Positions 5,106 through 22,279 of a DNA stretch of 64,000 nucleotides are shown piece by piece. The DNA is taken from NCBI RefSeq assembly GCF_033441515.1, contig NZ_JAWQJT010000001.1:3782001-3846000 (forward strand), in the 5' to 3' direction. The stretch's first letter is position 1. Each line of letters starts with the position of its first letter. The DNA is from Amycolatopsis solani. GTDB taxonomy: Bacteria; Actinomycetota; Actinomycetes; Mycobacteriales; Pseudonocardiaceae. Under the pieces are notes generated by a model, which was given only the letters and a program-made list of their open reading frames with translations, was not told the DNA's origin and did not search any database. Both the position numbers and the translations under genes were made by a program.

Positions 5106-5159
5106 TGCGTTTCCCATGTCAACCCATGCGTTTCGCATGACTTCTCCGTGTTTGCCGCA
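5106..5159 (+). promoter_or_regulatory. Triple 11-bp direct repeat upstream of the YcaO gene (SARP-type box)
   Basis: Boxes TGCGTTTCCCA (5106), TGCGTTTCGCA (5127) and TGTTTGCCGCA (5149) are spaced 21 and 22 bp, about two helical turns. SARP activators bind direct repeats on one DNA face just upstream of a -10 element; TAGACC at 5169 would be a suitable -10. The same arrangement recurs at 22226-22279 and 12220-12273. The remainder of 4935-5234 shows no gene. Confidence 0.6.
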
Positions 5160-5234
5160 CTGGCTGAGTAGACCTCGGGTGGAGCAGGATTCAGATTCTC
5201 GTCCCGCTCCATCCGGCTACCGGCAGGAGAACCC

Positions 5235-7541
5235 ATGCGCACGACAGCGGTCAACGCACGGGTCCCGGAAGACGGCGGCGCGGTGCCGGCGCGGGCCCCG
5301 GCCTTCCGGCGCCACCTGCGGGCCGAGGTCAGGGCGGGCAAGGGCGCGTACCTGTTCTCCGAACAGGGCGTGATCGCGATGCGCGGGGCGAAGATCGAGT
5401 CGCTCGCGGCGTTGCTGGACGGTACGCACGACCTCGACGGGCTGCTCCGTGACCGGCCCGGCGGGATGGCACCGGAAGAGGTCGCCGCGCTGCTGGCGCA
5501 GCTGGTCGACGCCGGGCTGGTGACGTTGCGCAGCCAGAGCGACGAAGACCGGCTCGGTGACGAACGCGCACTGGCCTATTGGGACGCGTGCGGTGTGGAC
5601 GCCGACCTCGTCGCCGCACGGCAGGGCACCGTGCGGCTGACCGCGGTCGGCGACAGCGCCGACGGCGTCGACCCGGGTGCGGTCGAGCGGGCACTGGCCG
5701 GTGCCGGGCTCGGGGTGGTGCGCACCGCCGCCGGCTCCGCCGACCTGTCGGTCGTGCTGTGCGCCGACTACCTCGACCCGCGGCTGGCCGTGGTCGACGC
5801 CGAGCACCGGCGGGCCGGGCGGCCGTGGCTGCTGGCGCGCCCGTTCGGGGCCCAGGTGTGGATCGGCCCGGTGCTGCAGCCGGCCGGGGCCTGCTGGCAC
5901 TGCCTGACCCACCGGCTGTGGGGCCACCGGCACGCCGAAGCGTGCGTGCAGGAGGAGCTGGGCCACGCCGGCCCGGCCCGCCGCCCGATGCCGGCGTTGC
6001 CGCCGCTCACCTCGGCCGCGGCACACCTCGTCGCGCTGGAGGCCGCCAAGTGGGTGGCCGGGTACCGCTACCACGGCCAGCAGTGCGTGTGGACGCTCGA
6101 CACCCTGGACCTGCAGGGCAGGCTCCACGAACTGCGCCGCCGCCCGCAGTGCCCCGGCTGCGGCGACCCGTGGCAGGTCGCGTGGCGCTCGGTCCGCCCG
6201 GTGACGCTGCAACCGGCGAAGAAGGCGACCACCGGGGGCGGCGGGCACCGCACGGCGACGCCGTCGCAGATGCTCGAACGGCACCGGCACCTGATCAGCC
6301 CGGTCACCGGGATCATCAAGGAGATCCAGCCGGACCCGGCCGCGCCGCCGTTCGCCAACGCCTACCGCTCCGGGCCCAACGTCGCCCGCGGCATCACCGG
6401 GATGGCCGCGCTGCGCGCCGGGCTGCGCTGCGAGAACGGCGGCAAGGGCGTCAGCCCGCTCGACGCCGAGGTCAGCGCGCTCTGCGAGGCGGCGGAACGG
6501 TTCTCGGGCAACTACCAGGGCGACGAGCTGCGCATCCGCGGCTCCTACGAGGAGCTGGGCGAGCAAGCCGTCCACCCCAACGACTGCATGCTGTTCGCCG
6601 GACGGCAGTACGCCGACCGCGCCGCCTGGAACCGCGCGCACGCGGACTTCCAGCACGTCCCCGAGCCGTTCGACCCGGCGGCCCGCACCGACTGGACGCC
6701 GGTGTGGTCGACGTCCGGCCGCCGTCGGCTCCTGCCGACGTCCTACCTGTACTACGGGACGCCGCGGGAGAGCGCGACGGCCGGGGTGCGCGCCGACTCG
6801 AACGGCGCGGCGGCGGGCAGCAGCCTGGAGGACGCGATCCTGCAGGGCGCGCTCGAGCTCGTCGAACGCGACGCCGTGGCGCTGTGGTGGTACAACCGCA
6901 CCCCCGTGCCGGGCGTCGACCTCGCGTCCTTCTCCGACGCGTGGCTGGAGGAGATGGCGGGCAACTACGCGGCGATCGGCCGGGAGATGTGGGTCCTCGA
7001 CGTGACCGCCGACCTGGGGATCCCGGTGACCGTCGCGCTTTCGCGGCGGACCGACGGCCCGCACGAAGACATCATGATGGGCTTCGGCGCGCACCTCGAC
7101 CCGCGGATCGCGGTGCGCCGCGCGGTGACCGAGCTCAACCAGATGCTGCCGGTGGTGCACCAGTCGGGGCACGGGCTCGACGACCCGGACGCGCGGCGCT
7201 GGCTCGCCTACGCGACCGTCGCGAACCAGCCGTACCTGCGGCCGGCCGCAGGGGAGCGGATGCGGACCGCCGCGGACTTCCCGTTCGTCAACCGGCCCGA
7301 CGTCCGCGACGACGTCGAAGCGCTGGGCCGGGTGTTCGACCGCGCCGGCCTGGAACTGCTGGTGCTCGACCAGACCCGCCCCGACGTCGGCATCCCCGTG
7401 GTCAAGGTGCTCGTCCCCGGCCTGCGCCCGTTCTGGGCCCGGTTCGCGCCCGGCCGGCTCTTCGACGTCCCGGTCGCGCTGGGCAGGCTGGCGGCGCCGA
7501 CCCCCTACGAGCGGCTCAACCCGTTCCCGATGTTCCTGTGA
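5235..7541 (+). CDS. Fused TOMM cyclodehydratase (C-domain plus YcaO)
   Basis: 768 residues, ATG after CCGGCAGGAG. The N-terminal ~340 residues match the E1/ThiF-like C protein (leader-peptide binding) of thiazole/oxazole-modified microcin systems, with a predicted zinc tetrathiolate C220-x2-C223 and C306-x2-C309. From ~350 the YcaO domain begins (PVTGIIKEIQPD), with CEAAERFSG and ELVERDAVALWWYNR as ATP-site segments. It ends NPFPMFL, a shortened form of the proline-rich C-terminus of azoline-forming YcaO proteins. Such enzymes use ATP to cyclise Cys/Ser/Thr on a precursor peptide. The SagB gene follows directly. The nearest candidate precursor is the 58-residue peptide at 12559; none lies immediately adjacent. 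Confidence 0.9.
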   Translation: MRTTAVNARVPEDGGAVPARAPAFRRHLRAEVRAGKGAYLFSEQGVIAMRGAKIESLAALLDGTHDLDGLLRDRPGGMAPEEVAALLAQLVDAGLVTLRSQSDEDRLGDERALAYWDACGVDADLVAARQGTVRLTAVGDSADGVDPGAVERALAGAGLGVVRTAAGSADLSVVLCADYLDPRLAVVDAEHRRAGRPWLLARPFGAQVWIGPVLQPAGACWHCLTHRLWGHRHAEACVQEELGHAGPARRPMPALPPLTSAAAHLVALEAAKWVAGYRYHGQQCVWTLDTLDLQGRLHELRRRPQCPGCGDPWQVAWRSVRPVTLQPAKKATTGGGGHRTATPSQMLERHRHLISPVTGIIKEIQPDPAAPPFANAYRSGPNVARGITGMAALRAGLRCENGGKGVSPLDAEVSALCEAAERFSGNYQGDELRIRGSYEELGEQAVHPNDCMLFAGRQYADRAAWNRAHADFQHVPEPFDPAARTDWTPVWSTSGRRRLLPTSYLYYGTPRESATAGVRADSNGAAAGSSLEDAILQGALELVERDAVALWWYNRTPVPGVDLASFSDAWLEEMAGNYAAIGREMWVLDVTADLGIPVTVALSRRTDGPHEDIMMGFGAHLDPRIAVRRAVTELNQMLPVVHQSGHGLDDPDARRWLAYATVANQPYLRPAAGERMRTAADFPFVNRPDVRDDVEALGRVFDRAGLELLVLDQTRPDVGIPVVKVLVPGLRPFWARFAPGRLFDVPVALGRLAAPTPYERLNPFPMFL

Positions 7542-7592
7542 GCGCCCCCGTGCGGGAGCTCGTTGTTCGTTGTCCGCTTGAGGAGTTTGGCC

Positions 7593-9038
7593 TTGCCTGC
7601 AGACCGCCCGGAGGGGATCCCGGACACCGTCCGGCTCTGGTCCCTCACCGAAGACACCCTGCTGGAGGCGGGGGACGACGACACGATCGTCGCGATCACC
7701 TGGTGGGGTGAGTACGAACTGGCGGGCATTCCCGGCCCGGTCCGCGAGTCACTGGGCCGGATGGTGCTCGGCCCGGTCTCGATGGGCAACCTCGCCTCGT
7801 CGGCGGCCGGTGGCGCCGAAGCCTGGGCGGGCGCGCTGCGCAAGGCCCTCAACCGGCTGTCGGGCTCGGTCGTGCACTCGCTGGCGCTCAACGACGGCCG
7901 CGGGCCGCTGCTGTCGGCGATCCCGGTGACGCAGTTCCCGGTCTTCTCGACCGATCCGGTGCCGCCCGGCAGGCTCATCAAGCTTTCGCGGTTCTCGGCG
8001 ATGCGGCCGGACAGCGGCGGGCTGCTGCTCGAGTCGCCCCGCGCCCGCTACCGGGTCGCGCTGCTGCGCCCGCCGGCCGTGACGGTGGCGTCGTCGCTGG
8101 CCCGGCCGGTCACCGTCGCCCAGGTCGCCGAGACCACCGGGCTGGCCGAAGCGGTGGTGGCCGACATCGCGGCGTTCCTGGTGGCGGCCGGCGTGGTGCT
8201 GGCGGCCGACGACTGGGCGGAGTTCGCCGAAGACGGCGACGACGACCTCGCCCCCTGGTCACCCGACGACCTGATGTTCCACGCGCGCAGCCGGACGTGG
8301 CAGAAGGGCGGGCCGTCGGAACCGGGGCCACGCCGGACCGGCGCCGAGCCGCCGGTGGTCAAGCAGATCAGCGCGGGCCCGACCTTCCCGTTGCACCGCC
8401 CGGACCCGGCGGTGCTCAAGGCGACCGACCCGACGCTGAGCACGTTGCTCGAAGAAGACCACGTGTGCCCCGAGGTCACCGAACGCGCGTTGTCGGCCGA
8501 GCAGATCGGGGAGTTCCTCTTCCGCGCCGCGCGGGTCCGGTCGATCGGGCCGACCTACCTGCCCGGCGGGCCCGGCCACGAGGCGTCCCAGCGGCCGTAC
8601 TTCAGCGTCGCCTGCCTGTACGAGCTCGAAATCTACGTCGCCGTCAACCGGTGCGCGGGGCTCGGCCGCGGGATCTACCACTACGACCCGCTGTGGCACA
8701 CGCTGACGCTCATCAACGACGACGCGGTGGCCCTGGACGGCATGCTGGACCTGGCCATGATCGGCGCCGGCAGCCACCGCCGGCCGTCGGTGCTGCTGAC
8801 GATGACCGCGCGGATGTCGCGGATCGCGTGGGTGCTCGGCAGCGCCGCGTACGCGACGACGCTGCTGCACGTCGGCGCGCTCCAGCAGGTCCTGTACCTC
8901 ACGGCGAAGGCGATGGGGCTCGCCGCGCACGCCGTGCCGGTCGACGCCGGCGACCGCGTCGACCGGTCGCTGAAGCTGGAGTGGCCCGCCGAAGTGAGCG
9001 TCGGCGAGTGCGTCCTCGACTTCCCCGGGGTCGGTTGA
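7593..9038 (+). CDS. SagB-type FMN-dependent azoline dehydrogenase
   Basis: 481 residues from TTG 7593, chosen because GAGGAG lies 7 bases before it. A variable N-terminal region (~1-280) is followed by a nitroreductase-like domain of the SagB/ThcOx class: EQIGEFLFRAARVRSIGP, PYFSVACLYELEIYVAVNRC, GIYHYDPLWHTL and, near the end, LHVGALQQVLYLTAKAMGLAAH. These enzymes oxidise azolines made by the YcaO enzyme to azoles with FMN. The usual Ser-Gly-Gly segment is replaced by LPGGPGHEASQ, so substrate range may differ. It follows the YcaO gene by 51 bases, in one operon. Confidence 0.85.
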   Translation: MPADRPEGIPDTVRLWSLTEDTLLEAGDDDTIVAITWWGEYELAGIPGPVRESLGRMVLGPVSMGNLASSAAGGAEAWAGALRKALNRLSGSVVHSLALNDGRGPLLSAIPVTQFPVFSTDPVPPGRLIKLSRFSAMRPDSGGLLLESPRARYRVALLRPPAVTVASSLARPVTVAQVAETTGLAEAVVADIAAFLVAAGVVLAADDWAEFAEDGDDDLAPWSPDDLMFHARSRTWQKGGPSEPGPRRTGAEPPVVKQISAGPTFPLHRPDPAVLKATDPTLSTLLEEDHVCPEVTERALSAEQIGEFLFRAARVRSIGPTYLPGGPGHEASQRPYFSVACLYELEIYVAVNRCAGLGRGIYHYDPLWHTLTLINDDAVALDGMLDLAMIGAGSHRRPSVLLTMTARMSRIAWVLGSAAYATTLLHVGALQQVLYLTAKAMGLAAHAVPVDAGDRVDRSLKLEWPAEVSVGECVLDFPGVG

Positions 9039-9106
9039 CCCCTGAATCCGGGGGTTCGCCCTGTTACCTTGGTGACACTGGGGTGCGGGGTGACGCGGGA
9101 GGGGCC

Positions 9107-10297
9107 GTGGTTTATCCGGTGCGGGTGCGCGGGCTGCGCTTTCGGAGGCGGGCCGCGCCGCTCGCGGACGAGCGGCGGGACTCCCGCGCGCTCGTGCTCG
9201 GCGCGCAGGCCGCGGCCGCCGCCGGCGTGGCGTTGCTCGCTGTCCTGCCCGTGCTCACCGGTGCCGAAGCGTGGTTCCTGCGGCCGGTCGCGCTGGCGTG
9301 TGCGGCGGGGCTGGTGGCCGGGCACCTGCGCTGGTTCGCCCGCGGCCGCGCCCGGCGCCCGTGGCTGGCCCTGACCGTGCAGGCCACGCTGGGGTTCGGG
9401 CCGTTGCTGTGGCTGGGCGAGCCGTGGAGCACCGCGAGCGGGTTCTTCGCCGGCGGCCTGCTGCTGGTGTCCCCGCCGGCCAGAGCGGTTCCCTGGGCGC
9501 TGCTCGCGTGCGTCGTCGCGGGGATCGTTTCGGCGGTGCCAGGCTGGCCTGCAGGCCTGTTCGACGCGGGAGTCGGGGGTGCGGTGTCGGCCGGCGTGGC
9601 GGCGCTGTCGCTGTTCGGGCTCGGGACGGCCGCGCGGGTGGTCGCCGGCCGGGCGCGGGAGGTCTGCGAGCTGAAGCGCCGGACCATCGCCGAGGAACGC
9701 ATGCGCTTCTCCCGAGACCTCCACGACCTGCTGGGATTGAGCCTTTCGGCCATCACCCTCAAGGGTGAACTCGTGGATCGCCTCGTGCCCGGGAAGCCGG
9801 AGCTGGCCAAGGCGGAACTGGCCGAACTGCTCGTGATGTCCCGGCGCGCGCTGGCCGACGTCCGCACGATCGCGGCGGGCTACCGCGAGCTGTCGCTGGA
9901 CGACGAGTGCCGCGCGGCGGCGGACGTCCTGAGCGCGGCGGGCACCCGCGTGACGGTCGCCCGGTCCGGCATCGGCGAGCTGCCCCCGCCGGTGGCCACG
10001 ACGCTGGGGACGGTGCTGCGCGAAGGGGTGACGAACGTGGTGCGCCACAGCACCGCGAGCTGGTGCGCGTTCTCGGTGAGCACCGAGGACGGCACGGCCT
10101 GGCTGGAGATCGTCAACGACGGCGCGAACGGCGCGGGCAGCGGCGAGGGCTCGGGCGCGGGCCTGCGCAACCTGGGCGACCGCGTCGAGGCGATGAACGG
10201 CACGCTGACCACGGAGGTGGGCCCGGACGGCACCCACCGCCTGCTGGTGGCCATCCCGGTCGGCTCGCTACGGCAGGAACGCCCCCGCGCAAGCTAA
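9107..10297 (+). CDS. NarL-type sensor histidine kinase
   Basis: 396 residues from GTG 9107, with a GGGAGGGG ribosome site. About five to six membrane segments (residues ~30-180) form the sensor. The HisKA_3 dimerisation helix contains FSRDLHDLLGLSLSAITLKGEL, including the phosphorylated His. The ATPase part shows REGVTNVVRHS (N-box), IVNDGANG (D-box) and GSGAGLRNLGDRVEAM (G-box), so the kinase looks intact. It is closely related to both halves of the double kinase at 13702. Likely partners are the response regulators at 10484 and 13051. It lies in line with the YcaO and SagB genes and converges on the first regulator. Confidence 0.88.
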   Translation: MVYPVRVRGLRFRRRAAPLADERRDSRALVLGAQAAAAAGVALLAVLPVLTGAEAWFLRPVALACAAGLVAGHLRWFARGRARRPWLALTVQATLGFGPLLWLGEPWSTASGFFAGGLLLVSPPARAVPWALLACVVAGIVSAVPGWPAGLFDAGVGGAVSAGVAALSLFGLGTAARVVAGRAREVCELKRRTIAEERMRFSRDLHDLLGLSLSAITLKGELVDRLVPGKPELAKAELAELLVMSRRALADVRTIAAGYRELSLDDECRAAADVLSAAGTRVTVARSGIGELPPPVATTLGTVLREGVTNVVRHSTASWCAFSVSTEDGTAWLEIVNDGANGAGSGEGSGAGLRNLGDRVEAMNGTLTTEVGPDGTHRLLVAIPVGSLRQERPRAS

Positions 10298-10483: not shown

Positions 10484-11089
10484 TCAGAGCCACTCGGCTT
10501 CGGTGGCGATGCGGATGGCGTGGACCCGGTTGCGGGCGTTCAGCTTCGTCACCACGGCGGCCAGGTAGTTGCGGACCGTTCCGGCGGACAGGAACAGCTC
10601 GGACGCGATGTCGGCGACCGTGCGCCCGCGTGCCGCCAGCGAGAGGATCTCGATCTCGCGCGGGGTCAGCGGGCAGTCGTCGGTTTCCCAGGCGGCGAGC
10701 GCCAGTTCGCTGTCGATGACCCGGCGTCCGATCGCGACCGACCGGACCGCGTTCGCCAGCTTGTCCGACGGCGAGTCCTTGAGCAGGAAGCCGTTCACCT
10801 TGGCGTCCAGCGCCCGGCGCACCGTGCCCGGCCGGCCGAGGCTGGTCAGGATCAGCGTGTGGACGTCCGGCAGGCTCTCGTGGATTTCGATCGCGGCGGA
10901 CAGGCCGTCCTTGCCCGGCAGGTCGATGTCGATGATCGCGACGTCGGGCTGGGCCGACTTCGCGGCGGGCAGGATCTGATCCCCCGTGGACACCTCGGCG
11001 ACGACCTCGATGTCGGATTCGAGGTTCAGCAAGGCGACGAGCGCGCCGCGGACCATGTGCATGTCCTCGGCCAGCAACACCTTGATCAC
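10484..11089 (-). CDS. NarL/LuxR-family response regulator (first copy)
   Basis: 201 residues from GTG 11089 (GAGG seven bases before). The receiver domain (~1-120) shows KVLLAEDMHMVRGALVALL, the phospho-acceptor in AIIDIDLPGKDG and the conserved Thr/Lys segments LILTSLGRPG and FLLKD. The LuxR helix-turn-helix (~140-200) reads CPLTPREIEILSLAARGRTVADIA and SAGTVRNYLAAVVTKLNARNR. Same length as, and roughly two-thirds identical to, the regulator at 13051, so they arose by duplication. Probable partner of the kinase at 9107. Confidence 0.9.
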   Translation of the reverse strand: MIKVLLAEDMHMVRGALVALLNLESDIEVVAEVSTGDQILPAAKSAQPDVAIIDIDLPGKDGLSAAIEIHESLPDVHTLILTSLGRPGTVRRALDAKVNGFLLKDSPSDKLANAVRSVAIGRRVIDSELALAAWETDDCPLTPREIEILSLAARGRTVADIASELFLSAGTVRNYLAAVVTKLNARNRVHAIRIATEAEWL

Positions 11090-11351: not shown

Positions 11352-12104
11352 TCAGCTCGCCAGCGACCGCGAAACGGCGGCCTGGCGCAGGTCGGGCAGG
11401 GCCAGCAGGACCGGCGGGTCGAAGCCGTGGCGCGGGCGCAGCCGCACGTCGGCCAGGCTCGCCGTGACGCCGCGCTGGATGTGCACCGGCCCGGTGAGGC
11501 CGGTGAACGGCCGCAACGCCTGGTTGCCGTCCAGCGCGCAGGTCCCGAACGCGTGCGTCAGCACGTACCATGACCCGAGCGGCACGTCTGCCAGCGCGTA
11601 TGGCCCGGGACCGGGCACGACCACGTGCCGGGCGGGGGTGCCCTCGGCGATGCGGGCGCTGAAGAGCCCGATGAACACCGGCCCGACGTCGGCCGGCGAG
11701 GAGAGGCGCAGCTGCCCGCGCACGGTGGCGCCCGAACCCGGCTCGGCCTGCCGGTCGGCGATCCGCGGCGCCATGCCGTGCAGCTGGCGGTAACCGGACG
11801 GCGAGACGCCGACGCTGCCGCTGAACCGCGCGCTGAAGGTGCCGACGCTGTTGTACCCGACCTGGTGGCTGATGTCGGCCACCGAGATGACGGTGGTCGC
11901 GAGCAGGCGTTTCGCCTCCGCCAGCCGCAGGGCCGAGAGGAACCGGCCGGGCGAGAGCCCGGTGACCCGCAGGAACACGCGGGTGAAGTGGAACTTGCTG
12001 AACATGGCCGCGCGGGCGAGGTCGTCGATCGTGAGCCGCTCGCCCAGGTTGTCTCGCATGGTCACGATGGCTCGTGCCACGGCTTGCCGGACGATCTCAT
12101 CCAT
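11352..12104 (-). CDS. AraC-family regulator (RiPP-side copy)
   Basis: 250 residues from ATG 12104. Unusually the AraC DNA-binding domain is N-terminal (~1-105): LTIDDLARAAMFSKFHFTRVF and a second helix pair ISVADISHQVGYNSVGTFSARF. The C-terminal ~140 residues form an uncharacterised domain with VGLFS-like and VPLGSW segments. The regulator at 22581 beside the enediyne core has the same order and related motifs, so they are paralogues. The gene diverges from the 58-residue peptide gene across a low-G+C region with a box triplet at 12220. The effector is unknown. Confidence 0.85.
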   Translation of the reverse strand: MDEIVRQAVARAIVTMRDNLGERLTIDDLARAAMFSKFHFTRVFLRVTGLSPGRFLSALRLAEAKRLLATTVISVADISHQVGYNSVGTFSARFSGSVGVSPSGYRQLHGMAPRIADRQAEPGSGATVRGQLRLSSPADVGPVFIGLFSARIAEGTPARHVVVPGPGPYALADVPLGSWYVLTHAFGTCALDGNQALRPFTGLTGPVHIQRGVTASLADVRLRPRHGFDPPVLLALPDLRQAAVSRSLAS

Positions 12105-12219
12105 GGTGGGCCGTCCCTCCGGTCGAGGAGTGCCGCCCGATCGCCTTCCCGGCGAAGGCACCCGGTGCGGGAATTGATTTCGGCTAAAACTGTAGATCCG
12201 TTGGCGTCTACTTCTTAAG

Positions 12220-12273
12220 TGCTCTGTGCACCGGTCGACGTGGATTTCGCCGGTGGTCGACATGCGTTTTGCA
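12220..12273 (+). promoter_or_regulatory. Degenerate 21/22-bp spaced box triplet in the AraC-peptide intergenic region
   Basis: TGCTCTGTGCA (12220), TGGATTTCGCC (12241) and TGCGTTTTGCA (12263) show the same 21 and 22-bp spacing as the triplets at 5106 and 22226, though only the third box is a close match. It lies in the 454-bp, relatively A+T-rich gap 12105-12558, which holds no other gene I can support. Confidence 0.4.
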
Positions 12274-12558
12274 CATGCCCCGTTTGCGCGGCTCCGGCGG
12301 GGGTAGCCGGGGTGTGCCGGGCATGCGTCACCCGTGAAGGTGATGGCAAAGCGCAGTCGACTGACCGCGCTTGGTCACGAAATCGGCGTGATCCGCTCCT
12401 CTTTCGACTTCTTGTTAGGCCGTTCGGCCCTCTCCCCGGAACCGCACGGACCATGTGTAAGCCACAGCGCCCCGATGATGCGGGCACTGGCTGTCGTTGC
12501 GTCCGTCGGCGACGATTTATGGCACGTGAAGCAATCATCTTCGCCACTGGGAGCAAAA

Positions 12559-12735
12559 ATGTCCGCACAGGTTTCTGCTGACGTCCGCGCGCTTTTCGCC
12601 GATATGGGAATCGAGTTCGAGAAGACCGTGACCGATCTGGCCATCGACCGCTTCGAGCAGTGGAGCAACCGCGGCGCCGACGTCCGCCCCGTCATGGGCA
12701 CCATCTGCAACATGGACCTCCTCGAAGCGGCCTGA
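12559..12735 (+). CDS. 58-residue peptide, candidate RiPP precursor
   Basis: ATG 12559 follows CTGGGAGCAAAA, a good ribosome site. The acidic, helical N-terminal ~38 residues (for example DVRALFADMGIEFEKTV) would suit a leader. The C-terminal end, from about residue 39, contains PVMGTICNMDLLEAA with one Thr (48) and one Cys (50) as possible azoline sites. The gene is framed by the duplicated regulators and lies in the same locus as the YcaO and SagB genes, 5 kb from them. Only one or two modifiable residues is few for a TOMM core, so it could instead be a small regulatory or structural protein. No database family is recognised. Confidence 0.6.
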   Translation: MSAQVSADVRALFADMGIEFEKTVTDLAIDRFEQWSNRGADVRPVMGTICNMDLLEAA

Positions 12736-13050
12736 GGAGTGTTTGCCCTGTTCCTGACGGTGCCGAGCCGGTCCCGGCGGATGCCTCCCGCGTCCGGCGC
12801 GACCGGCTCGTCGCATGTGGAGGGCCCGAGTGTCCACAGTCGCCGGCGGGGGACTTTCCAACCGTACCGCCGGTCCGCTCGTCACGGCCGGTAGCCGTCC
12901 GGTCGCGACGCGGCATTTTTAACCTGGCGCTTACCAGTGCCGGTGTATTTCCGCGGCGGCGGCGGCAAAGTGGTGCCCGAATGGTGCAACCGATTCGTCA
13001 AGCAGAATGTTTAACTGAGCTTCTGGGGAATCGTGAGTGCGGAGGCACCC
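12736..13050. other. Intergenic region after the peptide gene
   Basis: 315 bp without a supportable gene. Arms CGAGCCGGTC (12764) and GACCGGCTCG (12801) could pair around a 27-base loop just after the peptide stop. An A+T-rich patch with CATTTTTAAC near 12914 may belong to the promoter of the following response regulator. Confidence 0.4.
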
Positions 13051-13656
13051 GTGATCAGAGTGCTGGTTGCCGAGGACATGCACATCGTGCGGGGCGCGCT
13101 GGTCGCCCTGCTGCGGCTGGAGCCCGACATCGAGGTCGTCGCGGAGGTCGCGTCGGGGCTGGAGATCCTGCCCACCGCCAAGGCGAAGCAGGCGCAGGTG
13201 GCGGTCATCGACATCGACCTGCCGGGCAAGGACGGTCTCACCGCGGCCGGTGAGCTGCACGAACAGCTCCCGGAGTGCCGGACCCTCATCCTGACCAGCC
13301 TGGGTAGGCCGGGGACGCTCCGGCGCGCCCTGGACGCCAAAGTGGGCGGTTTCCTGCTGAAGGACGCGCCGCCCGACAAGCTGGCCAACGCCGTGCGCGG
13401 GGTCCTCGCCGGCCGCCGCATGGTCGACGGCGACCTGGCGCTCGCCGCCTGGGACACGGTGGACTGCCCGCTCACCGGCCGCGAGCTCGACGTGCTGCGG
13501 ATGACCGCGCAGGGCTACGGGACCGTCGAAGTCGCCGCGCGCCTGTACCTCTCGGCCGGCACGGTCCGGAACTACCTGACGACCGTCGTCGCGAAGCTCA
13601 ACGCCCGCAACCGGGTCGACGCCATCCGCATCGCCGAGGAGTCCGGCTGGCTCTGA
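13051..13656 (+). CDS. NarL/LuxR-family response regulator (second copy)
   Basis: 201 residues from GTG 13051, preceded by GGAGG; a GTG at 13033 is also in frame, but the chosen start gives the same length as the sister gene at 10484. The receiver has VLVAEDMHIVRGALVALL, VIDIDLPGKDG and LILTSLGRPG. The LuxR domain has CPLTGRELDVLRMTAQG and SAGTVRNYLTTVVAKLNARNR. It converges on the double kinase at 13702, separated by only 45 bp, mirroring the layout of the kinase at 9107 and its regulator. The nearly identical recognition helices suggest both regulators could bind the same sites. Confidence 0.9.
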   Translation: MIRVLVAEDMHIVRGALVALLRLEPDIEVVAEVASGLEILPTAKAKQAQVAVIDIDLPGKDGLTAAGELHEQLPECRTLILTSLGRPGTLRRALDAKVGGFLLKDAPPDKLANAVRGVLAGRRMVDGDLALAAWDTVDCPLTGRELDVLRMTAQGYGTVEVAARLYLSAGTVRNYLTTVVAKLNARNRVDAIRIAEESGWL

Positions 13657-13701: not shown

Positions 13702-16113
13702 TCAGACCGGTACGACCGCGCGCAACCGGAAGCGGCCGTCCGGCTCGACCCCGGCGGTGAGTTCGCCGCCGAGGTCGGCGACCCGGTGCGACAGGTTGCC
13801 GATCCCGCTGCCCGGCGAGGTGTCCCGCGGCGCCGCGACGGCCCGCGGGCGCCGCGGTTCGGGCACCGCGGGGCCGGGTTCTTCCGGTACCGCGGCCTCC
13901 TCGGTCTCGCGGCTCGCGGGGCGGGGCCCGTCGCCGTTGCGCTCGACGCCGTCGTTGACGATGTCGAGGCAGATCCCGTTGTCCGTGCGGCGCATGGCGA
14001 TCTCGCAGCTCTCCACCCGGCTGTGCCGCAGGACGTTCGTGACGCCTTCGCGCAGGACGACGGCCAGCACCGTCCGCACCGGCATCGGCAGCTCGTCCTC
14101 GAGCATCTCCATCCGCACCCGCACGTCGGCGGCCACCAGCACGGACTTCGCCGTGCGGGACTCGCTGTCGAGGGACAGCTCGCGGTAGCCGCTGGCGACC
14201 GACCGGACGTCGGAGAGGGCCTGCCGCGTCAGGCCGAGGACTTCGGTCAGCTCCTCGGCGGCGCGGCCGCGGTCCAGTGGCAGCACCCGCGCGGTCAGCT
14301 CGCTCTTCAGCGCGATCGCGGACAGGCTCATGCCGAGCAGGTCGTGCAGGTCGCGGGCGAACCGCAGCCGCTCTTCGGCCAGCGCCATCTCGGCCAGCCG
14401 GCGGCGGGTGTTGTCGAGCTCGGTCACCAGCCGCACCAGCCACAGCAGCCCGAACACCGCCAGCCCCGTCATCACGGTCGCGGCGGTGTAGAAGACCGTG
14501 GAGGTGATGTCCGCGCCGGAGAACCGCTGGATCTCCGCGTAGGCGGCGATGTTCACCGCGAAGAACGCCCAGCCCGCCACCGGCGGCAGGACCAGCAGCC
14601 CGCTGCCGATCAGCAGCCCGGGCACGCTGACCCAGTTCGCGCCCAGCGGCAGCAGCGGCAGGTAGGTCAGGCAGACCTGGACGAAGAGCATGCCGTAGCT
14701 CTGGCCCGACCGCAGCTGCGTCGCGGGCCGGTTGAAGTACGAGAACTGCAGGGCCAGCAACGCCACCACGCAGCCGACGACCAGCGCCACCTCCCACGCC
14801 TGGGTGGTCAGCTGGAGCACGTGCACGGTCGCGCCGCACCCCATGATGGCCATGCACGCCGGCAGCAGCCAGCGGATCCGCTTCGACTCGCTCGCCGACC
14901 GCTTCGTTTCGGGCGCGGTAGGTCGCACGGTCCGGTCGGCCACCGGGAGCTCGACGCGCAGCCGGAACCGGCCGTCCGCGCCGGCCTTCACGGTGGCCGT
15001 GCCGCCGAGCGCGGCGACCTCGTCGGGCAGGGCGGTCAGCTTGCTGTCCGGGGCGAGCGCCGCCTCGTCCGCGGTGACCCCGTCGTTGACGATTTCGAGG
15101 GTGACCTTGCCGTCGTGGTGGCGGACGTCGATCTCGCAGTGCTCGACTTCGCTGTAGCGCAGGACGTTCGTGACCCCTTCGCGCAGCACCCGGGCGAGCA
15201 GCGTGCGGGCCTGGACGGGCAGGTCGCCCTGGTCGAGGTGGATCTGCACGGCGATGTCGGAGGCCGACAGCAGCGTCTCGGCCGTCCGCGACTCCTTTTC
15301 CAGCGAAAGCTCCCGGTAGCCGTGGGAGACGGCCCGGACGTCGGAGAGCGTGCGCTGCGCGGTGGCGGTGATCTCGGCGAGCTCGGCTTTGGCGCGGTCG
15401 GCGGACTTGCGCATCAGGCGGTGCACCAGCTCGCCCTTGAGCGCGATCGCGGACAGGCTCAGCCCGAGCAGGTCGTGCAGGTCGCGGGCGAAGGCGAGGC
15501 GCTGCTCGGCGACCGCGCGCTGGGCCAGTTCGGTGCGGGCCTGGTGCAGTTCGTTGACCAGCCGGACGAGCCGGGCCAGCAGGTAGAACAGGAAGCTGTA
15601 GAAGGCGGCCGCGAGCCCGTTGTAGATCGCCGACAGCGGCGGGGCGTCGAAGAACCAGTAGACGAAGACGACGCTGAGGCAGACCGCGGTGAGCGTGGGC
15701 CAGGCCCACCGGGGCGGCAGCACGAGCAGGGCCGCGCCGCCGACGAAGTCCGGCATGTCCGCCCAGTAGACGCCGAAGGTCAGGATGGGCAGGTAGGCCA
15801 GCACGACCATGACGCCGAGCAGGACCCGGCTGGTCGCCGAGTCGAGCTGGGCCCCGGGGCGGCTGAACCACAGCAGCTGGATCGCGAGCAGCCCGGCGAC
15901 GGCGGCGATCGCGTAGACCGCGTGCAGGCCGTCGACCGACGTCGGCAGCAGGTTCACCACGCCGACCACGCCGAACCCGGCGACGACCACGACGACGATG
16001 GCCGCGGCCAGGTAGGTGGCCAGCCGTGGACGCCGGTCCGCCGCGGTGGTCCCGCGCGGTTCGGCGGTCGCTGAGCGCCCGGTGGGGGGCTCGAGTGCGG
16101 CGACCGGAGACAT
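13702..16113 (-). CDS. Tandem fused double histidine kinase
   Basis: 803 residues from ATG 16113 (GGGGGG upstream; an ATG at 16185 is also in frame). Two complete NarL-type kinases are joined head to tail. Half one has about six membrane segments, FARDLHDLLGLSLSAIALKGEL with H213, and N- and D-boxes REGVTNVLRYS and IVNDGV. Half two begins near residue 410, repeats a ~six-segment sensor, then FARDLHDLLGMSLSAIALKSEL with H590, REGVTNVLRHS, IVNDGV and a G-box GSGIGNLSHRVADLGG. In half one the G-box is replaced by DSKLTALPDEVAALGG, lacking the glycines, so its ATP binding may be lost. It converges on the regulator at 13051, its likely partner. Confidence 0.88.
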   Translation of the reverse strand: MSPVAALEPPTGRSATAEPRGTTAADRRPRLATYLAAAIVVVVVAGFGVVGVVNLLPTSVDGLHAVYAIAAVAGLLAIQLLWFSRPGAQLDSATSRVLLGVMVVLAYLPILTFGVYWADMPDFVGGAALLVLPPRWAWPTLTAVCLSVVFVYWFFDAPPLSAIYNGLAAAFYSFLFYLLARLVRLVNELHQARTELAQRAVAEQRLAFARDLHDLLGLSLSAIALKGELVHRLMRKSADRAKAELAEITATAQRTLSDVRAVSHGYRELSLEKESRTAETLLSASDIAVQIHLDQGDLPVQARTLLARVLREGVTNVLRYSEVEHCEIDVRHHDGKVTLEIVNDGVTADEAALAPDSKLTALPDEVAALGGTATVKAGADGRFRLRVELPVADRTVRPTAPETKRSASESKRIRWLLPACMAIMGCGATVHVLQLTTQAWEVALVVGCVVALLALQFSYFNRPATQLRSGQSYGMLFVQVCLTYLPLLPLGANWVSVPGLLIGSGLLVLPPVAGWAFFAVNIAAYAEIQRFSGADITSTVFYTAATVMTGLAVFGLLWLVRLVTELDNTRRRLAEMALAEERLRFARDLHDLLGMSLSAIALKSELTARVLPLDRGRAAEELTEVLGLTRQALSDVRSVASGYRELSLDSESRTAKSVLVAADVRVRMEMLEDELPMPVRTVLAVVLREGVTNVLRHSRVESCEIAMRRTDNGICLDIVNDGVERNGDGPRPASRETEEAAVPEEPGPAVPEPRRPRAVAAPRDTSPGSGIGNLSHRVADLGGELTAGVEPDGRFRLRAVVPV

Positions 16114-16292
16114 CAGTGCGGACCCCCCGGAGTCTGCGCGGCGGCCGGTCCGCTCGGGAGGCCGGAACCTGGACGCGGTGTGCATGGCGTGCGGTAGATC
16201 CTAACTCACGGGAGCGCGCCGAAAACGGTGCGAAAGCGCGCAGAACGGTCCCGGCGGCCGTTCGGACGCCGGGAAACGGAGTGGACGGACGC

Positions 16293-18036: not shown

Positions 18037-18702
18037 TCAGCTCTCCAGCAGTTCCAGCCATTCGGCGGTGTGGCGCCCGGTGAACGTCAGGTCCAGCTCT
18101 TCGGCGAACCGGCGGCCGGTCACCAGCAGGCAGAAGTCCTCCGCCGGTCCGCTCACGCGGTCGGTCGCGTTCTCCGGGCCGAAGTCCCAGCGCGTTCCCG
18201 ACGGGGCGGTCAGCTCGAAGCGGAACGGCTTCGCGGGCGGCGTCTCCTGGTGGCGCCGGTAGGCCCGATCCCTGGTCCGGACGCCGTAGTACGCGACGTG
18301 GCCGATGGCGTCGTCACGCTGGGGGTGGACGCCGAACAGGTCGGCGATGTCCTGGCCGCCGGCGAAGACCTCGGTCAGCACGGCCGCGGCGAGGACCGAC
18401 GGGCGCAGGGGGCCGTCGCTCCACGGCAGCTCCGGCTCCGGTGGGGCCGAGGCCAGCAGCGCGTTGGCCTTCCGCTGCTCGATCAGCCAGATCAGGATGG
18501 CCTCGTCGAGCGAGTCGTAGGAGATCTGCGGGGTGACGCCGAAGGCGCCCGGGTTTTCGACGCTGAGCCGGACCAGCCGCGCGGTCGACGTCAACCGGGC
18601 GAAGTGCCCGGTGATGTTCGGGCCGGGACCGTACCCGTGGCGTTCGGCCAGCTCGGCCAGCGCCTCCGTCTCGGTCTGCAGGTCCGTGAACACGTCGGCC
18701 AT
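18037..18702 (-). CDS. TIGR03084-like protein, paralogue of the one inside the enediyne core
   Basis: 221 residues from ATG 18702. The C-terminal part FRFELTAPSGTRWDFGPE followed by a DFCLLVTGRR segment is shared almost word for word with the protein at 33575 that sits beside the PksE gene. The N-terminal half fits the DinB/maleylpyruvate-isomerase bundle, with VFAGGQDIADLFGV in the middle. The function of this family is unknown. The close resemblance to a core-cluster gene suggests that this region may be part of, or derived from, the enediyne locus. Confidence 0.7.
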   Translation of the reverse strand: MADVFTDLQTETEALAELAERHGYGPGPNITGHFARLTSTARLVRLSVENPGAFGVTPQISYDSLDEAILIWLIEQRKANALLASAPPEPELPWSDGPLRPSVLAAAVLTEVFAGGQDIADLFGVHPQRDDAIGHVAYYGVRTRDRAYRRHQETPPAKPFRFELTAPSGTRWDFGPENATDRVSGPAEDFCLLVTGRRFAEELDLTFTGRHTAEWLELLES

Positions 18703-18829
18703 CGGTGCCGCCCTCCTGGGGTCCGGGACTGCCCGGGTCCAGGCTGGCAGGCGGGCTCGCGGGGGCTCCACTCCGCGGTTGCGACGTCCGCCTCGGCTAT
18801 GTTCATCCGCACGGACGAAGGGAGCGGGC

Positions 18830-19213
18830 GTGAAGTACCTGCTGGCGATGTACCTGAACCCCGACGTGATGGCGAACCTGTCCGAGGCCGAGATGGACAC
18901 CATCATGACCGGGCACCAGGATTTCATCCGCACGATCAGGGAATCCGGCGAGATGATCAGCACGCAGGCGCTCGGCGCGGTCGCCGACAGCTCCGTCGTG
19001 CGGGTGCGCTCGGGCCTGCCCGCGGTCACCGACGGGCCGTTCCTGGAATCGAAGGAATTCCTCGCCGGCTACTACCTCGTGGAGTGCGCGAGCAAGGACC
19101 GCGCCGTCGAGCTCGCGGCGCTGATCCCCGACGCCGCCGTCGACGGCCTCGGCATCGAAGTGCGCGAGGTCGTCTTCTTCGCCGACGCCGAAACCGAAGT
19201 CCCCATGGCGTGA
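18830..19213 (+). CDS. YCII-related DGPF protein
   Basis: 127 residues from GTG 18830, with GGGAGCGG before it. It contains the DGPF signature in TDGPFLESKEFLAGYYLVE, typical of DGPF/YCII proteins that accompany ECF42 sigma factors. The downstream sigma gene overlaps its stop by four bases (GTGA), so the two are coupled. These proteins have a ferredoxin-like fold and no established catalytic role; in ECF42 systems they are often the main regulated target. Confidence 0.88.
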   Translation: MKYLLAMYLNPDVMANLSEAEMDTIMTGHQDFIRTIRESGEMISTQALGAVADSSVVRVRSGLPAVTDGPFLESKEFLAGYYLVECASKDRAVELAALIPDAAVDGLGIEVREVVFFADAETEVPMA

Positions 19214-20427
19214 GCGGCGTCGCCGAGGTCCTGCGGCCGCTGGTGCCGCAGGTGCTGGGCGTGCTCGTCCGCAAGTACGGCCAGTTCGACGCCTGCGAGG
19301 ACGCCGTGCAGGAGGCCCTGCTCGCGGCGAGCGAGCAGTGGCCGGTCGACGGGGTGCCGGACCACCCGCGCAGCTGGCTCGTCACGGTCGCCACCCGGCG
19401 GCTCACCGACCTCTGGCGCAGCGAAAGCGCCCGTCGCCGTCGCGAAGAGACGGTCGCTGTGCGCGAGCCGGCCGCCGTCGTCGCCGGTCCCGGGGAGGAG
19501 CGGCCCGCCGAGTCCGATGACACGCTGTCGCTGCTGTTCCTGTGCTGCCACCCGGCGGTTTCGCCGCCGTCGCAGGTCGCGCTGACGCTGCGCGCGGTCG
19601 GCGGCCTGACCACGGCGCAGATCGCGAGCGCGTTCCTGGTGCCCGAGGCGACCATGGCGCGCCGGATCACCCGGGCGAAGGAGAGCATCGCGGCGGCGGG
19701 CTCGACGTTCAGCGAACCGTCGCCCGCGGACTTTCCGGAGCGGTTGCGCGTGGTGCTCCAGGTGCTGTACCTGATCTTCAACGAGGGGTACACGGCGACG
19801 TCGGGGGAGCACCTGCTGCGCGTCGAGCTCGCGGCGGAGGCGATCCGGCTGACGCGCGCGGTGCGCGCCCTGCTCCCGGGCGAAGGCGAAGTCGCCGGGC
19901 TGCTGGCGCTGATGCTGCTGACGGACGCGCGGCGGGCGGCGCGCACCGGCCCGGAGGGCGAGCTGGTCCCGCTGCCGGAGCAGGACCGCGGCCGCTGGGA
20001 CGCGGCGATGATCGCGGAGGGCGTCGAGCTGGTCCGTGCGGTGCTCGGCCGCGGCCCGATCGGGCCGTACCAGGTCCAGGCGGCGATCGCGGCGCTGCAC
20101 GACGAAGCGCCGAGTACGGAAACGACGGATTGGCCGCAGATCGTCGAGCTCTACGGCGTGCTGGGCGAGCTGATGCCGGGCCCGGTGGTCACGGTGAACC
20201 GGGCGGTGGCCGTCGCGCAGGTGTCGGGCCCGGAAGCCGCGCTGGAGCTGCTCGACGGCGTCGACGTGGCGCACCGGGCCGACGCGGTCCGCGCGCACCT
20301 GCTGGAGGACGCGGGCCGCGCGGCGGAGGCACGGGAGTTCTACCTGCGGGCGGCGAAGCGGACCGAGAGCGACCCGGAACGCCGTTACCTGCAAGCGAAA
20401 GCGGCGCGGCTCGGCCCCGGGATGTAG
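19210..20427 (+). CDS. ECF42-type RNA polymerase sigma factor with C-terminal TPR-like extension
   Basis: 405 residues from GTG 19210. Region 2 reads KYGQFDACEDAVQEALLAASEQW, then WLVTVATRRLTDLWRSE. Region 4 reads GGLTTAQIASAFLVPEATMARRITRAK. The extended C-terminal ~200 residues (FNEGYTATSGEHLLRVELAAEA, AVAQVSGPEAALELLDGV) are the DUF6596/TPR-like tail of ECF42 factors, which replaces an anti-sigma factor in control of activity. Coupled to the DGPF gene. The target genes are not evident from the sequence. Confidence 0.9.
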   Translation: MSGVAEVLRPLVPQVLGVLVRKYGQFDACEDAVQEALLAASEQWPVDGVPDHPRSWLVTVATRRLTDLWRSESARRRREETVAVREPAAVVAGPGEERPAESDDTLSLLFLCCHPAVSPPSQVALTLRAVGGLTTAQIASAFLVPEATMARRITRAKESIAAAGSTFSEPSPADFPERLRVVLQVLYLIFNEGYTATSGEHLLRVELAAEAIRLTRAVRALLPGEGEVAGLLALMLLTDARRAARTGPEGELVPLPEQDRGRWDAAMIAEGVELVRAVLGRGPIGPYQVQAAIAALHDEAPSTETTDWPQIVELYGVLGELMPGPVVTVNRAVAVAQVSGPEAALELLDGVDVAHRADAVRAHLLEDAGRAAEAREFYLRAAKRTESDPERRYLQAKAARLGPGM

Positions 20428-20473: not shown

Positions 20474-20509
20474 GGCATCGGGGCGGGCCGGCGGTGTCCG
20501 ATGTGGACG

Positions 20510-21208
20510 TCAGCGGACCACGATGCCGGTCGCCGGCTCCGGGGCCGCCGGGACGTGGAACAGCCGGCCGAACAGCTCCAGGTCGGACAGCTCGCCCTCG
20601 ATCGCGATCTTGCCCGAGCGCAGTGCCGTCGGCGCGGGGAGCTGGCCGCTCATCAGGTCCAGCAGCGCCGCGCCGTGCACGGCCTTGATGACCAGGTCGG
20701 CACCCGCGAACCGGCCCTCGCCGACCTTGACCGCGCCGTCCTCGACGAGGGCGTGCACGATCATGCGGTCGTCGTAGCGGATCTCGAAGTTGATCTGGAC
20801 GCCTTCCGCGCACTCGGCGCGGAACGTCGTGTACAGCGACAGGATCGCCGCGTCCAGGGTGAACACGTCGTCGGCGCCGGGGGCGTGCAGCGAGCGGGCA
20901 CCCCACAGGCCGAGGTCGAGCAGAATGTGGTCGAGCTCGCTGCCGTACTGGGTCAGCTCGTAGACCAGGCCCGCCTCGAGCTCGGCGCGGACGCGGCGGC
21001 GGATCACGCCGGTCGCCTCCAGCTCGTTGAGCCGGGCCGACAGGATGGACGGCGGGATCTTCGGCAGGCCGGCCTGCAGCTCGTCGTAGCGCTTCGCGCC
21101 GAGCACCAGATCGCGGATGATCAGCAGCGACCAGCGCTCGCCGATGAGCTCGAGCGCGCGGGCGACGCCGCAGAACTGGCCGTAGGCACGGGTTTGTGCA
21201 GTGGGCAT
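20510..21208 (-). CDS. HxlR-family regulator with SCP2-like domain (enediyne side)
   Basis: 232 residues from ATG 21208. N-terminal winged helix: FCGVARALELIGERWSLLIIRDLVLG, YDELQAGLPKIPPSILSARLNELEATGVI. The C-terminal half, with ADLVIKAVHGAALLDLMSGQ, looks like an SCP2 lipid-binding fold. Closely related throughout to the protein at 4242 by the YcaO gene. It lies 67 bp downstream of the SARP gene in the same direction, so the two are probably co-transcribed. It may sense a pathway product; the ligand is unknown. Confidence 0.85.
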   Translation of the reverse strand: MPTAQTRAYGQFCGVARALELIGERWSLLIIRDLVLGAKRYDELQAGLPKIPPSILSARLNELEATGVIRRRVRAELEAGLVYELTQYGSELDHILLDLGLWGARSLHAPGADDVFTLDAAILSLYTTFRAECAEGVQINFEIRYDDRMIVHALVEDGAVKVGEGRFAGADLVIKAVHGAALLDLMSGQLPAPTALRSGKIAIEGELSDLELFGRLFHVPAAPEPATGIVVR

Positions 21209-21275
21209 CGAACGTTCCTCACTTCTTTCTCGGGCGATCCGACGGTTCGGCGGGTGCCGGGGAAGTCTGGGCGGA

Positions 21276-22082
21276 TCAGCGGTGGTCGCCTTCGGAGATC
21301 AGTTCCCGGTGCAGGATCTGCAGGTCGTCGCACGGTTCGACGCCCAGCTCGCCGGCCAGCCGGGACCGGAGTCTGCGGTAGACGGTCATCGCGTCGGACC
21401 GCCGTCCACTGCGGCCGAGCGCACGCATCAGCTGCCCGTGCAGGGCTTCGTCGAGCGGGCTGCCGGTGGTCAGCGAGCGCAGCTCGCCGATCAGCTCGCG
21501 GTGCCGCCCGCCGATGATCTCCGCTTCGATCCGCAGGTGCAGCACGCTGCGCCGCTGCTCCAGCAGCTCGGTCCGGTAGGCGGACAGCACCGGTCCACAG
21601 TGGACGTTCGCGAACGGGGTGCCGGACCAGAGGTCCAGCGCCGCCCGGTAGGCGTCCGCGGCGGCCGAGTGGTCGCCGGCGTCCTGGTGCTCGTGGCCGA
21701 TCTGCTGCAGCCGGGTGAAGTCGTGGGTGTCCACCTGGGCCGGGTCGATGTGGAAGGTGTAACCCGATTGCTTGGTGGTCAACATCTTCTCACCGTCGGC
21801 CGCGAGCTCGTTCTGGTCGATGCACCGGCGGAGGTGGTAGACGTAGGTGTGCAGCGTGGTCCGGACCGTCCGCGGCGGGTTGTCCGACCAGAGCTCCCGG
21901 ATCAGGGTGTCGATGTGTACCATCTTCCCCGGTCGCATCACGAGCACGGCCAGCAGTGCCAGCACCTTCGGGGTCGTCGGGGCGAAATCCGTTCCCCCGC
22001 GCAGCACTTCCAGCGGCCCCAGCACGGTGAAGCGGACACCACCTCGGTCCGGCTCGTTGGTTCGCCGCTGTTCGGAGTACAT
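21276..22082 (-). CDS. SARP-family transcriptional activator
   Basis: 268 residues from ATG 22082. The N-terminal OmpR-like winged helix (VRFTVLGPLEVLRGG, LALLAVLVMRPGKMVHIDTL, ELWSDNPPRTVRTTLHTYVY) and the following BTAD domain (residues ~100-255) define a short SARP of the pathway-specific kind. Such proteins activate biosynthetic genes by binding direct repeats upstream of the promoter. It is divergent from the AraC gene, and the intervening region contains a box triplet at 22226. Likely the main switch of the enediyne genes. Confidence 0.92.
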   Translation of the reverse strand: MYSEQRRTNEPDRGGVRFTVLGPLEVLRGGTDFAPTTPKVLALLAVLVMRPGKMVHIDTLIRELWSDNPPRTVRTTLHTYVYHLRRCIDQNELAADGEKMLTTKQSGYTFHIDPAQVDTHDFTRLQQIGHEHQDAGDHSAAADAYRAALDLWSGTPFANVHCGPVLSAYRTELLEQRRSVLHLRIEAEIIGGRHRELIGELRSLTTGSPLDEALHGQLMRALGRSGRRSDAMTVYRRLRSRLAGELGVEPCDDLQILHRELISEGDHR

Positions 22083-22225
22083 GGCAGGCCTCCAGCATCA
22101 TCAATGCGTCCTCGCGCTCCCCAGTTCGTGCCGCGCGGGTCGGTGGACGGCCGAACTCCGGGCTTCTATCCGAATGTGACAGAGCGGGGCCGCAACGGCC
22201 AGTGAACCGCCCACCAGAGTCCTTG

Positions 22226-22279
22226 TGCGTTCGCCCTGTCCGCGCATGCGTTTCGCAGGGTCCGCACGTGCGTTTCGCA
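22226..22279 (+). promoter_or_regulatory. Triple 11-bp direct repeat between SARP and AraC genes
   Basis: TGCGTTCGCCC (22226), TGCGTTTCGCA (22247) and TGCGTTTCGCA (22269) are spaced 21 and 22 bp, as upstream of the YcaO gene. TGCGNNNCGCA is also a short palindrome, so a dimeric regulator is possible. It would control the AraC-led operon, the SARP gene itself, or both. Confidence 0.65.

Follow-up and report, generated by a model that had tools for sequence, protein, structure and literature searches.

Paired TG-N7-CA boxes in a YcaO peptide and enediyne locus of Amycolatopsis solani: candidate operators of a DesR-type regulator in a putative pheromone circuit

The 64,000-nucleotide stretch of Amycolatopsis solani analysed here (contig NZ_JAWQJT010000001.1, positions 3,782,001 to 3,846,000; hereafter the window) carries genes for a ribosomally synthesized and post-translationally modified peptide (RiPP) beside an enediyne cluster. 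TG-N7-CA boxes occur in promoters of the RiPP genes and of regulators next to the enediyne genes. Comparison with related genomes indicates that the unit is a pair of such boxes, usually at a spacing of 22 bp, and that CTGG directly adjoins the proximal box. We consider, at a probability of about 0.6, that a DesR/NarL-type response regulator uses the boxes as its operators within a peptide-pheromone circuit driving the RiPP genes and the enediyne regulators. This regulator accompanies the element in different lineages, and the core of the precursor peptide diverges together with the sensor domains of a neighbouring kinase. We know of no description of the TG-N7-CA/22-bp/CTGG element.

An earlier note on this DNA had described a box triplet, spaced 21 and then 22 bp, in three promoters. 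Between the genes of a Streptomyces antibiotic regulatory protein (SARP) and of AraC-B the boxes were found exactly as described, at 22226, 22247 and 22269 (TGCGTTCGCCC, TGCGTTTCGCA and TGCGTTTCGCA; spacing 21 and 22 bp). Upstream of YcaO, the boxes at 5106 and 5127 (TGCGTTTCCCA and TGCGTTTCGCA; 21 bp) were exact, the third (TGTTTGCCGCA at 5149, 22 bp further) was weak, and a fourth, TGAGTCCCGCA at 5084, had been overlooked. These four boxes (5084–5094, 5106–5116, 5127–5137 and 5149–5159; spacing 22-21-22) form a symmetric array at 5080..5163 in the HxlR-A/YcaO divergent promoter, with CCAG at 5080–5083 and CTGG at 5160–5163. Aligned with the promoters of related regions, the array reads CCAG-[TGN7CA]-22-[TGN7CA]-21-[TGN7CA]-22-[TGN7CA]-CTGG. 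It consists of two back-to-back pairs, each ending at CTGG and one for each divergent promoter, and the 21-bp spacing is the gap between the two pairs. The triplet did not hold as a unit; the comparison across Amycolatopsis and other genera shows box pairs instead.

The third triplet, 12220, 12241 and 12263 (TGCTCTGTGCA, TGGATTTCGCC and TGCGTTTTGCA; spacing 21 and 22 bp; 12220..12273), exists, with weak first two boxes and a box at 12263 that is almost invariant in the alignment. It had been assigned to the promoter of a 58-residue peptide, and instead falls in the AraC-A promoter, with the peptide gene about 295 bp away. The peptide gene has a better site of its own, overlooked earlier and the best in the window, at 12454..12490 (+), where boxes 12454–12464 and 12476–12486 are 22 bp apart and are followed by CTGG. 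The SARP/AraC-B intergenic array (22199..22279) consists of CCAG at 22199–22202 and boxes at 22203–22213, 22226–22236, 22247–22257 and 22269–22279; the last two are exactly 22 bp apart and face AraC-B and the enediyne genes.

The spacing of TG-N7-CA boxes peaked at 22 bp (77 pairs), followed by 21 (27 pairs), 23 (22 pairs) and 20 bp (15 pairs), with at most 5 pairs at any other spacing from 12 to 34 bp; the counts were made on alignments of these intergenic regions across related genomes (27, 23 and 29 sequences, not independent of one another). On the YcaO side, the proximal box with CTGG was present in 25 of the 27 sequences of the window's group (window included), the distal box lying at 22 bp in 14 and at 23 bp in 11. 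At loci where SARP adjoins YcaO (SARP-YcaO loci) it was present in 16/18, with the distal box always at 22 bp. The HxlR-A side showed the proximal box and CTGG in 25/27 (window included; distal box at 22 bp in 16), and the peptide promoter in all 23 aligned sequences (distal box at 22 bp in 15). On the AraC-B side, a 22-bp pair (22247/22269 in the window) occupied this position in 15/29 aligned regions. The pair also precedes the precursor-YcaO operon in other lineages. CAGGAT or CAGAAT was located at a near-constant distance in 22/29 elements (counted by eye; two rows are the same genome). We infer that CTGG is the −35 region and CAGRAT the −10; the putative −10 of the YcaO operon is CAGGAT at 5185..5190 (+).

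Diverged forms of the element were also found. Upstream of YcaO, 7 of the 31 response regulator-positive loci that failed the strict pattern carry a CACTGT version with a spacing of exactly 22 bp; six of the seven are Streptomyces with no HxlR or AraC in the locus. This variant was sought post hoc and its background then checked: the CACTGT 22-bp pattern was absent from the rest of the 1.72 Mb of the 80 YcaO loci and from 400 kb of background. Five Lentzea loci have a perfect single box, TATGAAAACTTCATA. A relaxed two-box match lies about 6.6–7.6 kb downstream of the YcaO start in the Kibdelosporangium-type loci L266, L273, L276, L277, L278 and L280.

Single boxes with up to two mismatches were not enriched in the window (17 observed, 19.2 expected), and spaced pairs were rare genome-wide, so the information lies in the spacing. 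A genome scan of the kind proposed in the earlier note as a check found TGCGTT-N14-16-TGCGTT three times in 10.28 Mb, always in the YcaO and SARP/AraC-B promoters; the reversed control pattern matched once in the same 10.28 Mb. In comparison with 400 kb elsewhere in the genome, the window contained five versus zero TGCGTTTnnCA boxes, three versus zero matches to the two-box pattern with CTGG, and four versus zero to the three-box pattern (a single array counted on both strands). One box with CTGG alone was common (8 in the 400 kb, 4 in the window). A position weight matrix (PWM) was built from 19 non-redundant strict elements from outside the window's group. Its top three matches in the window were 12454(+) with 29.9, 5116(−) with 18.9 and 5127(+) with 10.5. 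The background maximum was 11.1 in 400 kb, so the third match would be unremarkable by itself. Another set of TGCGTTT pairs at 22 bp (TGCGTTTTTCC..CTGCGTTT and close forms), conserved in six Amycolatopsis genomes (L006, L007, L014, L018, L020 and L023), was judged unrelated, with 0/10 query proteins in the 3-kb locus.

The proteins encoded near the element were surveyed at 12 loci of different lineages (about 33–59 kb each), 11 with the strict element and one (G204) with CACTGT. A response regulator was present at all 12, with 67–82% identity. A SARP of at least 50% identity was present at 7, any SARP match at 10, AraC at 8 and HxlR (full-length match) at 5. The DesR/NarL-type response regulator is the sole DNA-binding protein detected at each of the 12 loci. 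The window encodes two copies with 71% identity, RR1 (10487..11089, −) and RR2 (13033..13656, +; Response_reg and GerE domains, start codon uncertain); RR2 is the proposed box binder. Of 80 Amycolatopsis genomes, 63 encode the response regulator (E ≤ 1e-70), and these are precisely the genomes that have a YcaO match at E ≤ 1e-250, a cut-off that sits in a gap between 1e-255 and 1e-183. The closest solved structure to RR2 is DesR (4ldz, E 1.2e-46), and the GTVRNYL motif in its helix-turn-helix is conserved in 23/26 aligned regulators. As expected for a DesR/NarL operator, the regulator is encoded in the same cluster, and the tandem near-palindromic sites lie upstream of the predicted −35.

By homology and position, the 58-residue open reading frame (ORF) at 12559..12735 (+) is the predicted precursor of the YcaO/SagB product. 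It is taken as the precursor because, in other lineages, YcaO is immediately preceded by small ORFs bearing the same motif (..IDEFDQWxN..). The peptide has a leader (..LAIDRFEQW) and a variable core (..GTICNMDLLEAA), and was found in 27/27 sequences of the window's group (set A, window included). Where database names exist for the family, they read only "hypothetical protein". Together with YcaO (5235..7541, +; Pfam PF02624, TIGR03604 and TIGR03882), which is of the SagD type with a leader-binding domain, and a SagB/ThcOx-type dehydrogenase (7563..9038, +; TIGR03605), the small precursor gives the gene content of a thiazole/oxazole-modified microcin or linear azole-containing peptide (TOMM/LAP) cluster. 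The proposed receptor is HK2 (13702..16185, −), a double kinase of 827 aa with two membrane-sensor plus HisKA_3 modules in one chain. Matches spanning both HK2 modules also occur at G097 and G100.

Core distances of the peptide were compared with protein distances by partial Mantel tests, with the YcaO distance removed (set A, 2000 permutations); such tests can overstate significance for related genomes. The HK2 C-sensor (r 0.71) and N-sensor (r 0.42) co-varied with the core, both with p 0.0005, the smallest value obtainable with 2000 permutations. SARP (0.04), the HK2 C-kinase (0.03), the HK1 sensor (0.02), RR2 (0.00) and RR1 (−0.18) showed no such signal. L086, in which HK2 is split, was included as a partial sequence in this run and dropped from a re-run that ignored gaps, which gave 0.64 for the C-sensor, 0.69 for the N-sensor and −0.01 for the C-kinase. 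Both subgroups (A1 and A2) retained the sensor signal. In a second Amycolatopsis group (set B), 18 of the 20 fetched genomes were used; L345, where the contig ended before a peptide was reached, and the divergent L356 were dropped. With the RR2 DNA as control, the N-sensor reached 0.63 and the C-sensor 0.42 in this set, and the leader was not significant.

Individual genomes show the same pattern. The window, L065 and L066 share the core (96–100%) and the N-sensor (95–97%), whereas L067 and L068 differ from them in both (core 53–70%, N-sensor 73–75%), with YcaO at 95–97% throughout. The DNA of RR2 and of the adjoining HK2 C-terminal kinase region, which lies between the peptide and the sensors, diverged across peptide types no more than within them, so a single recombination tract does not explain the co-divergence. 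Judged from these comparisons, core and sensor diverge as would be expected of a pheromone and its receptor. The locus also encodes several parts of a pheromone system: a precursor, maturation enzymes, a membrane kinase (segments assigned by eye) and a regulator, with a putative signal that co-varies with the sensor.

The link between the RiPP genes and the enediyne cluster, claimed in the earlier note, was upheld by gene order. The order HxlR, YcaO, SagB, SARP, AraC-B recurs in 26 further Amycolatopsis regions, and the enediyne gene DUF1702 lies within the fetched stretch in 25 of these 26; DUF1702 is also near YcaO at 8/12 more distant loci. In the window, the enediyne core (23518..40444, +) comprises DUF1702 (23518), an UnbV/FG-GAP gene (25644) and an enediyne-type polyketide synthase (34379–40444), the gene content of an enediyne cluster.

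We propose the following circuit. RR2 and/or RR1 would bind the paired near-palindromic boxes, typically 22 bp apart, with the abutting CTGG serving as −35 region, and the bound regulator would activate divergent promoters. The genes proposed to be under its control are those for the precursor peptide, YcaO-SagB-HK1, HxlR-A, AraC-A, SARP-HxlR-B and AraC-B. With this target set, the RiPP genes would be driven directly and the enediyne genes via SARP and AraC-B. The peptide, presumably modified by YcaO/SagB and exported, would most likely act as an autoinducing pheromone and be sensed by the membrane domains of HK2. HK2 would then phosphorylate RR2 and close a positive feedback loop. In the broader proposal, the peptide would be a pheromone typed by species (a pherotype), for which the membrane sensors of HK2 are the reader; through the DesR-type regulator, acting at the paired boxes, it would switch on its own synthesis as well as the enediyne regulators. 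The module would be a portable one, also present at other loci in Streptomyces, Lentzea, Micromonospora and relatives. We judge this broader proposal about as likely as not.

Several observations weigh against the proposed circuit. On the SARP side of the SARP/AraC-B region (P3), the proximal box lies next to CTGG in 28/29 sequences and a canonical distal box in none; on the SARP side of the SARP-YcaO loci, 11/18 have the proximal box and CTGG and again lack a canonical distal box, and set B has the proximal box and CTGG at its second SARP copy in 0/8. The PWM scan of the window did not recover the SARP/AraC-B site either. The enediyne link through SARP and AraC-B is therefore the weakest step. 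Further points come from the named YcaO loci, the best 80 of 560 relatives, of which 39 were element-positive (element ≤600 bp from YcaO) and 41 negative. The response regulator was found in the 22-kb flanks of 27/39 positive loci, and for the remaining 12 it was found in the genome that carries the locus. It was equally frequent in the flanks of negative loci (31/41) and so does not discriminate there, and two element-negative control genomes also carry it. HxlR (29/39 versus 4/41), AraC (30/39 versus 6/41) and SARP of at least 50% identity (18/39 versus 3/41) were commoner at positive loci. Much of this contrast reflects Amycolatopsis relatedness, yet that is no proof against those regulators; part of it arises because many of the negative loci belong to other genera, whose element has diverged. 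Of eight control YcaO loci without the strict element, seven have the response regulator, and one of the eight, G221, has the element at 23-bp spacing. The G-numbered genomes and the named loci overlap (e.g., L235/G017 and L258/G037), so the two sets are not independent. The six Streptomyces loci with the CACTGT variant also carry a SARP match (39–40%). On the peptide side, the set A signal extended to the HK2 N-kinase (0.24; 0.57 in the re-run), HxlR-B (0.22, p 0.017) and SagB (0.19, p 0.063). Subgroup A1 showed weak HK1 sensor (0.20) and RR2 (0.21) terms (p about 0.04; 0.20–0.23), subgroup A2 gave 0.53 for the HK2 C-kinase and 0.47 for AraC-B, and set B gave 0.38 for the N-kinase, with 0.19 for the C-kinase (p 0.094). 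When the HK2 C-kinase or the leader served as control, several other genes became significant too. The co-divergence could also stem from peptide DNA and sensor DNA having been exchanged in two separate events. No ABC exporter or leader peptidase was found among the window ORFs scanned, which are part of all ORFs.

The earlier note had assigned the three promoters to one regulator, the SARP (21276..22082, −; BTAD and Trans_reg_C domains), binding the boxes as direct repeats and co-activating the RiPP and enediyne genes. One regulator class probably does act at these promoters, and its identification with SARP was not supported. After the wide locus surveys SARP is an unlikely binder; since close SARPs are commoner at element-positive loci, some SARP role is possible. 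It adjoins the P3 array, lies directly between HxlR and YcaO in 16 fetched Amycolatopsis regions and at other loci, and has the frequent matches at element loci counted above. The boxes are also kept with SARP and without an HxlR match in G068, which has a YcaO match, and the passages on SARP repeats in PMC10936776 give a spacing of 11 or 22 bp. However, no SARP match was found within about 48 kb at the element loci G097 and G100 or within 22 kb at Micromonospora musae (L267), a search of locus flanks only, so that SARPs elsewhere in those genomes are possible, and SARP identity drops to 30–40% at loci with an intact element. SARP repeats end 8 bp from the −10 according to the same passages (PMC10936776); here the near-palindromic boxes lie upstream of the putative −35, and the proximal box ends at 5159, 25 bp before the putative −10 that starts at 5185 (a predicted −10). 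The SARP promoter itself carries the box next to CTGG (the 28/29 at P3), so SARP looks like a target of the boxes rather than their binder. A DesR-type response regulator was present in all element-bearing genomes checked.

An AraC-family regulator, AraC-A (11352..12105, −) or AraC-B (22584..23486, +; start uncertain), is a less probable binder still. AraC/XylS proteins recognise half-sites spaced by 21 bp, the proximal half-site being at the −35. The box geometry fits this, and AraC is enriched at element-positive named loci. Yet no AraC match was found at G058, G379, G227 and G062, nor at the loci of M. musae and Streptomyces that carry the element or the CACTGT form of it, and both AraC genes adjoin arrays and may themselves be targets. 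The paralogues HxlR-A (4242..4934, −) and HxlR-B (20510..21208, −; downstream of SARP), with 61% identity, would bind the boxes as autoregulators or as repressors of divergent genes, which we consider very improbable. One HxlR gene lies near each strong array, and HxlR shows the enrichment given above; the HxlR genes, like both response-regulator genes, were absent from the earlier note. HxlR as binder was weakened by G068, where the elements persist and the genome gave no HxlR match at E ≤ 1e-20 (36/53 candidates scored), and by element loci without an HxlR match (G130, G379, G227, G062, G037 and the Streptomyces variants). A rival for the peptide is that it is an antibiotic or another product, and that linkage or a common local evolution accounts for its diverging together with HK2. 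We regard this as possible, though doubtful. Characterised TOMM/LAP peptides are mostly known for bioactivity, the peptide, RR2 and HK2 genes are neighbours, and the HK2 N-terminal kinase co-varies too. Against it, the intervening RR2 and C-kinase region do not diverge with peptide type, and the core, not the leader, co-varies with the sensors, which was repeated in the second group.

The proposed pheromone circuit resembles the agr and nisin-type systems (AgrD-AgrC-AgrA; NisRK) in its precursor, modifying enzymes, membrane kinase and regulator, and in the element, a candidate regulator site, on the precursor promoter. In agr, too, the peptide core and the sensor co-vary. Unlike those systems, the present locus has YcaO/SagB chemistry, a NarL/DesR-type regulator, an actinobacterial host and an output that includes polyketide-cluster regulators, with no exporter or protease found among the ORFs scanned. 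It resembles streptolysin S-like TOMM/LAP loci (SagBCD) in the fused leader-binding and YcaO domains, SagB and a short precursor with a Cys/Ser/Thr core, and differs in a standing association with kinase/response-regulator pairs and, at many loci, with an enediyne cluster. SARP operators (AfsR/afsS, DnrI and PimR) likewise have repeated boxes at two helical turns in biosynthetic-gene promoters; here the position relative to the −10 and −35 is different, the boxes are near-palindromic and the element occurs where no SARP match was found. As in DesK-DesR of Bacillus subtilis, whose DesR is the closest solved relative of RR2, the kinases HK1 (9041..10297, +; downstream of SagB) and HK2 have HisKA_3 domains with the H-box RDLHDLLG, and several membrane segments can be made out in them by eye. 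One report describes inverted as well as direct regulator repeats in the des promoter (PMC7726353). The setting in a RiPP/enediyne cluster, the fused double kinase HK2 and the sensors co-diverging with the peptide are unlike DesK-DesR. The C-1027 enediyne cluster (sgcR1-R3) also has several cluster-situated regulators, one of them AraC/XylS-like, and the sections of its description drawn on here mention no peptide circuit (PMC2657911). Some Bacteroidales RiPPs have been suggested as possible signals from neighbouring signalling genes, as stated in part of another report (PMC10352776). Among the matches listed (titles in the open-licence literature), no description of the combination of a YcaO peptide, a two-component system and an enediyne cluster was found. 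Peptide-pheromone two-component systems and TOMM peptides are known kinds; their combination and the enediyne link would be new among these matches.

Under laboratory conditions many antibiotic clusters of actinobacteria are silent, and their best-known inducers are butyrolactone-like molecules. If the proposed circuit is true, a ribosomal azole-type peptide would be an inducer of an enediyne cluster, which offers a testable route to why such clusters stay silent. A family of peptides that carries only hypothetical annotations would also gain a function, and pherotype evolution of the agr kind would reach YcaO peptides and DesR-type regulators. With the co-divergence result, the pairing of ligand and receptor can be tested directly.

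Other features were noted in and around the window. The C-terminal part of HxlR-A matches an SCP2/alkyl-sulfatase-like domain, and its ligand is perhaps lipid-like. The frame at 18070–20427 (+), between HK2 and HxlR-B, has sigma-70 region 2, region 4 and DUF6596 matches and looks like an extracytoplasmic function-type sigma factor. A strong inverted repeat rich in G+C (CCAGGGACCCC..GGGGTCCCTGG; 22300–22331) lies between the last box and AraC-B and is a possible attenuator. In five relatives (G017, G030, G040, G041 and G069), the YcaO promoter lies about 10–12 kb from the end of the contig or chromosome record. Palindromic repeats with TGAATGACTCATTC or its near complement occur at 2149–2193, 16967–17011, 20472, 51778 and 52040 as low PWM hits, and these stretches are possibly an interspersed repeat or terminator family.

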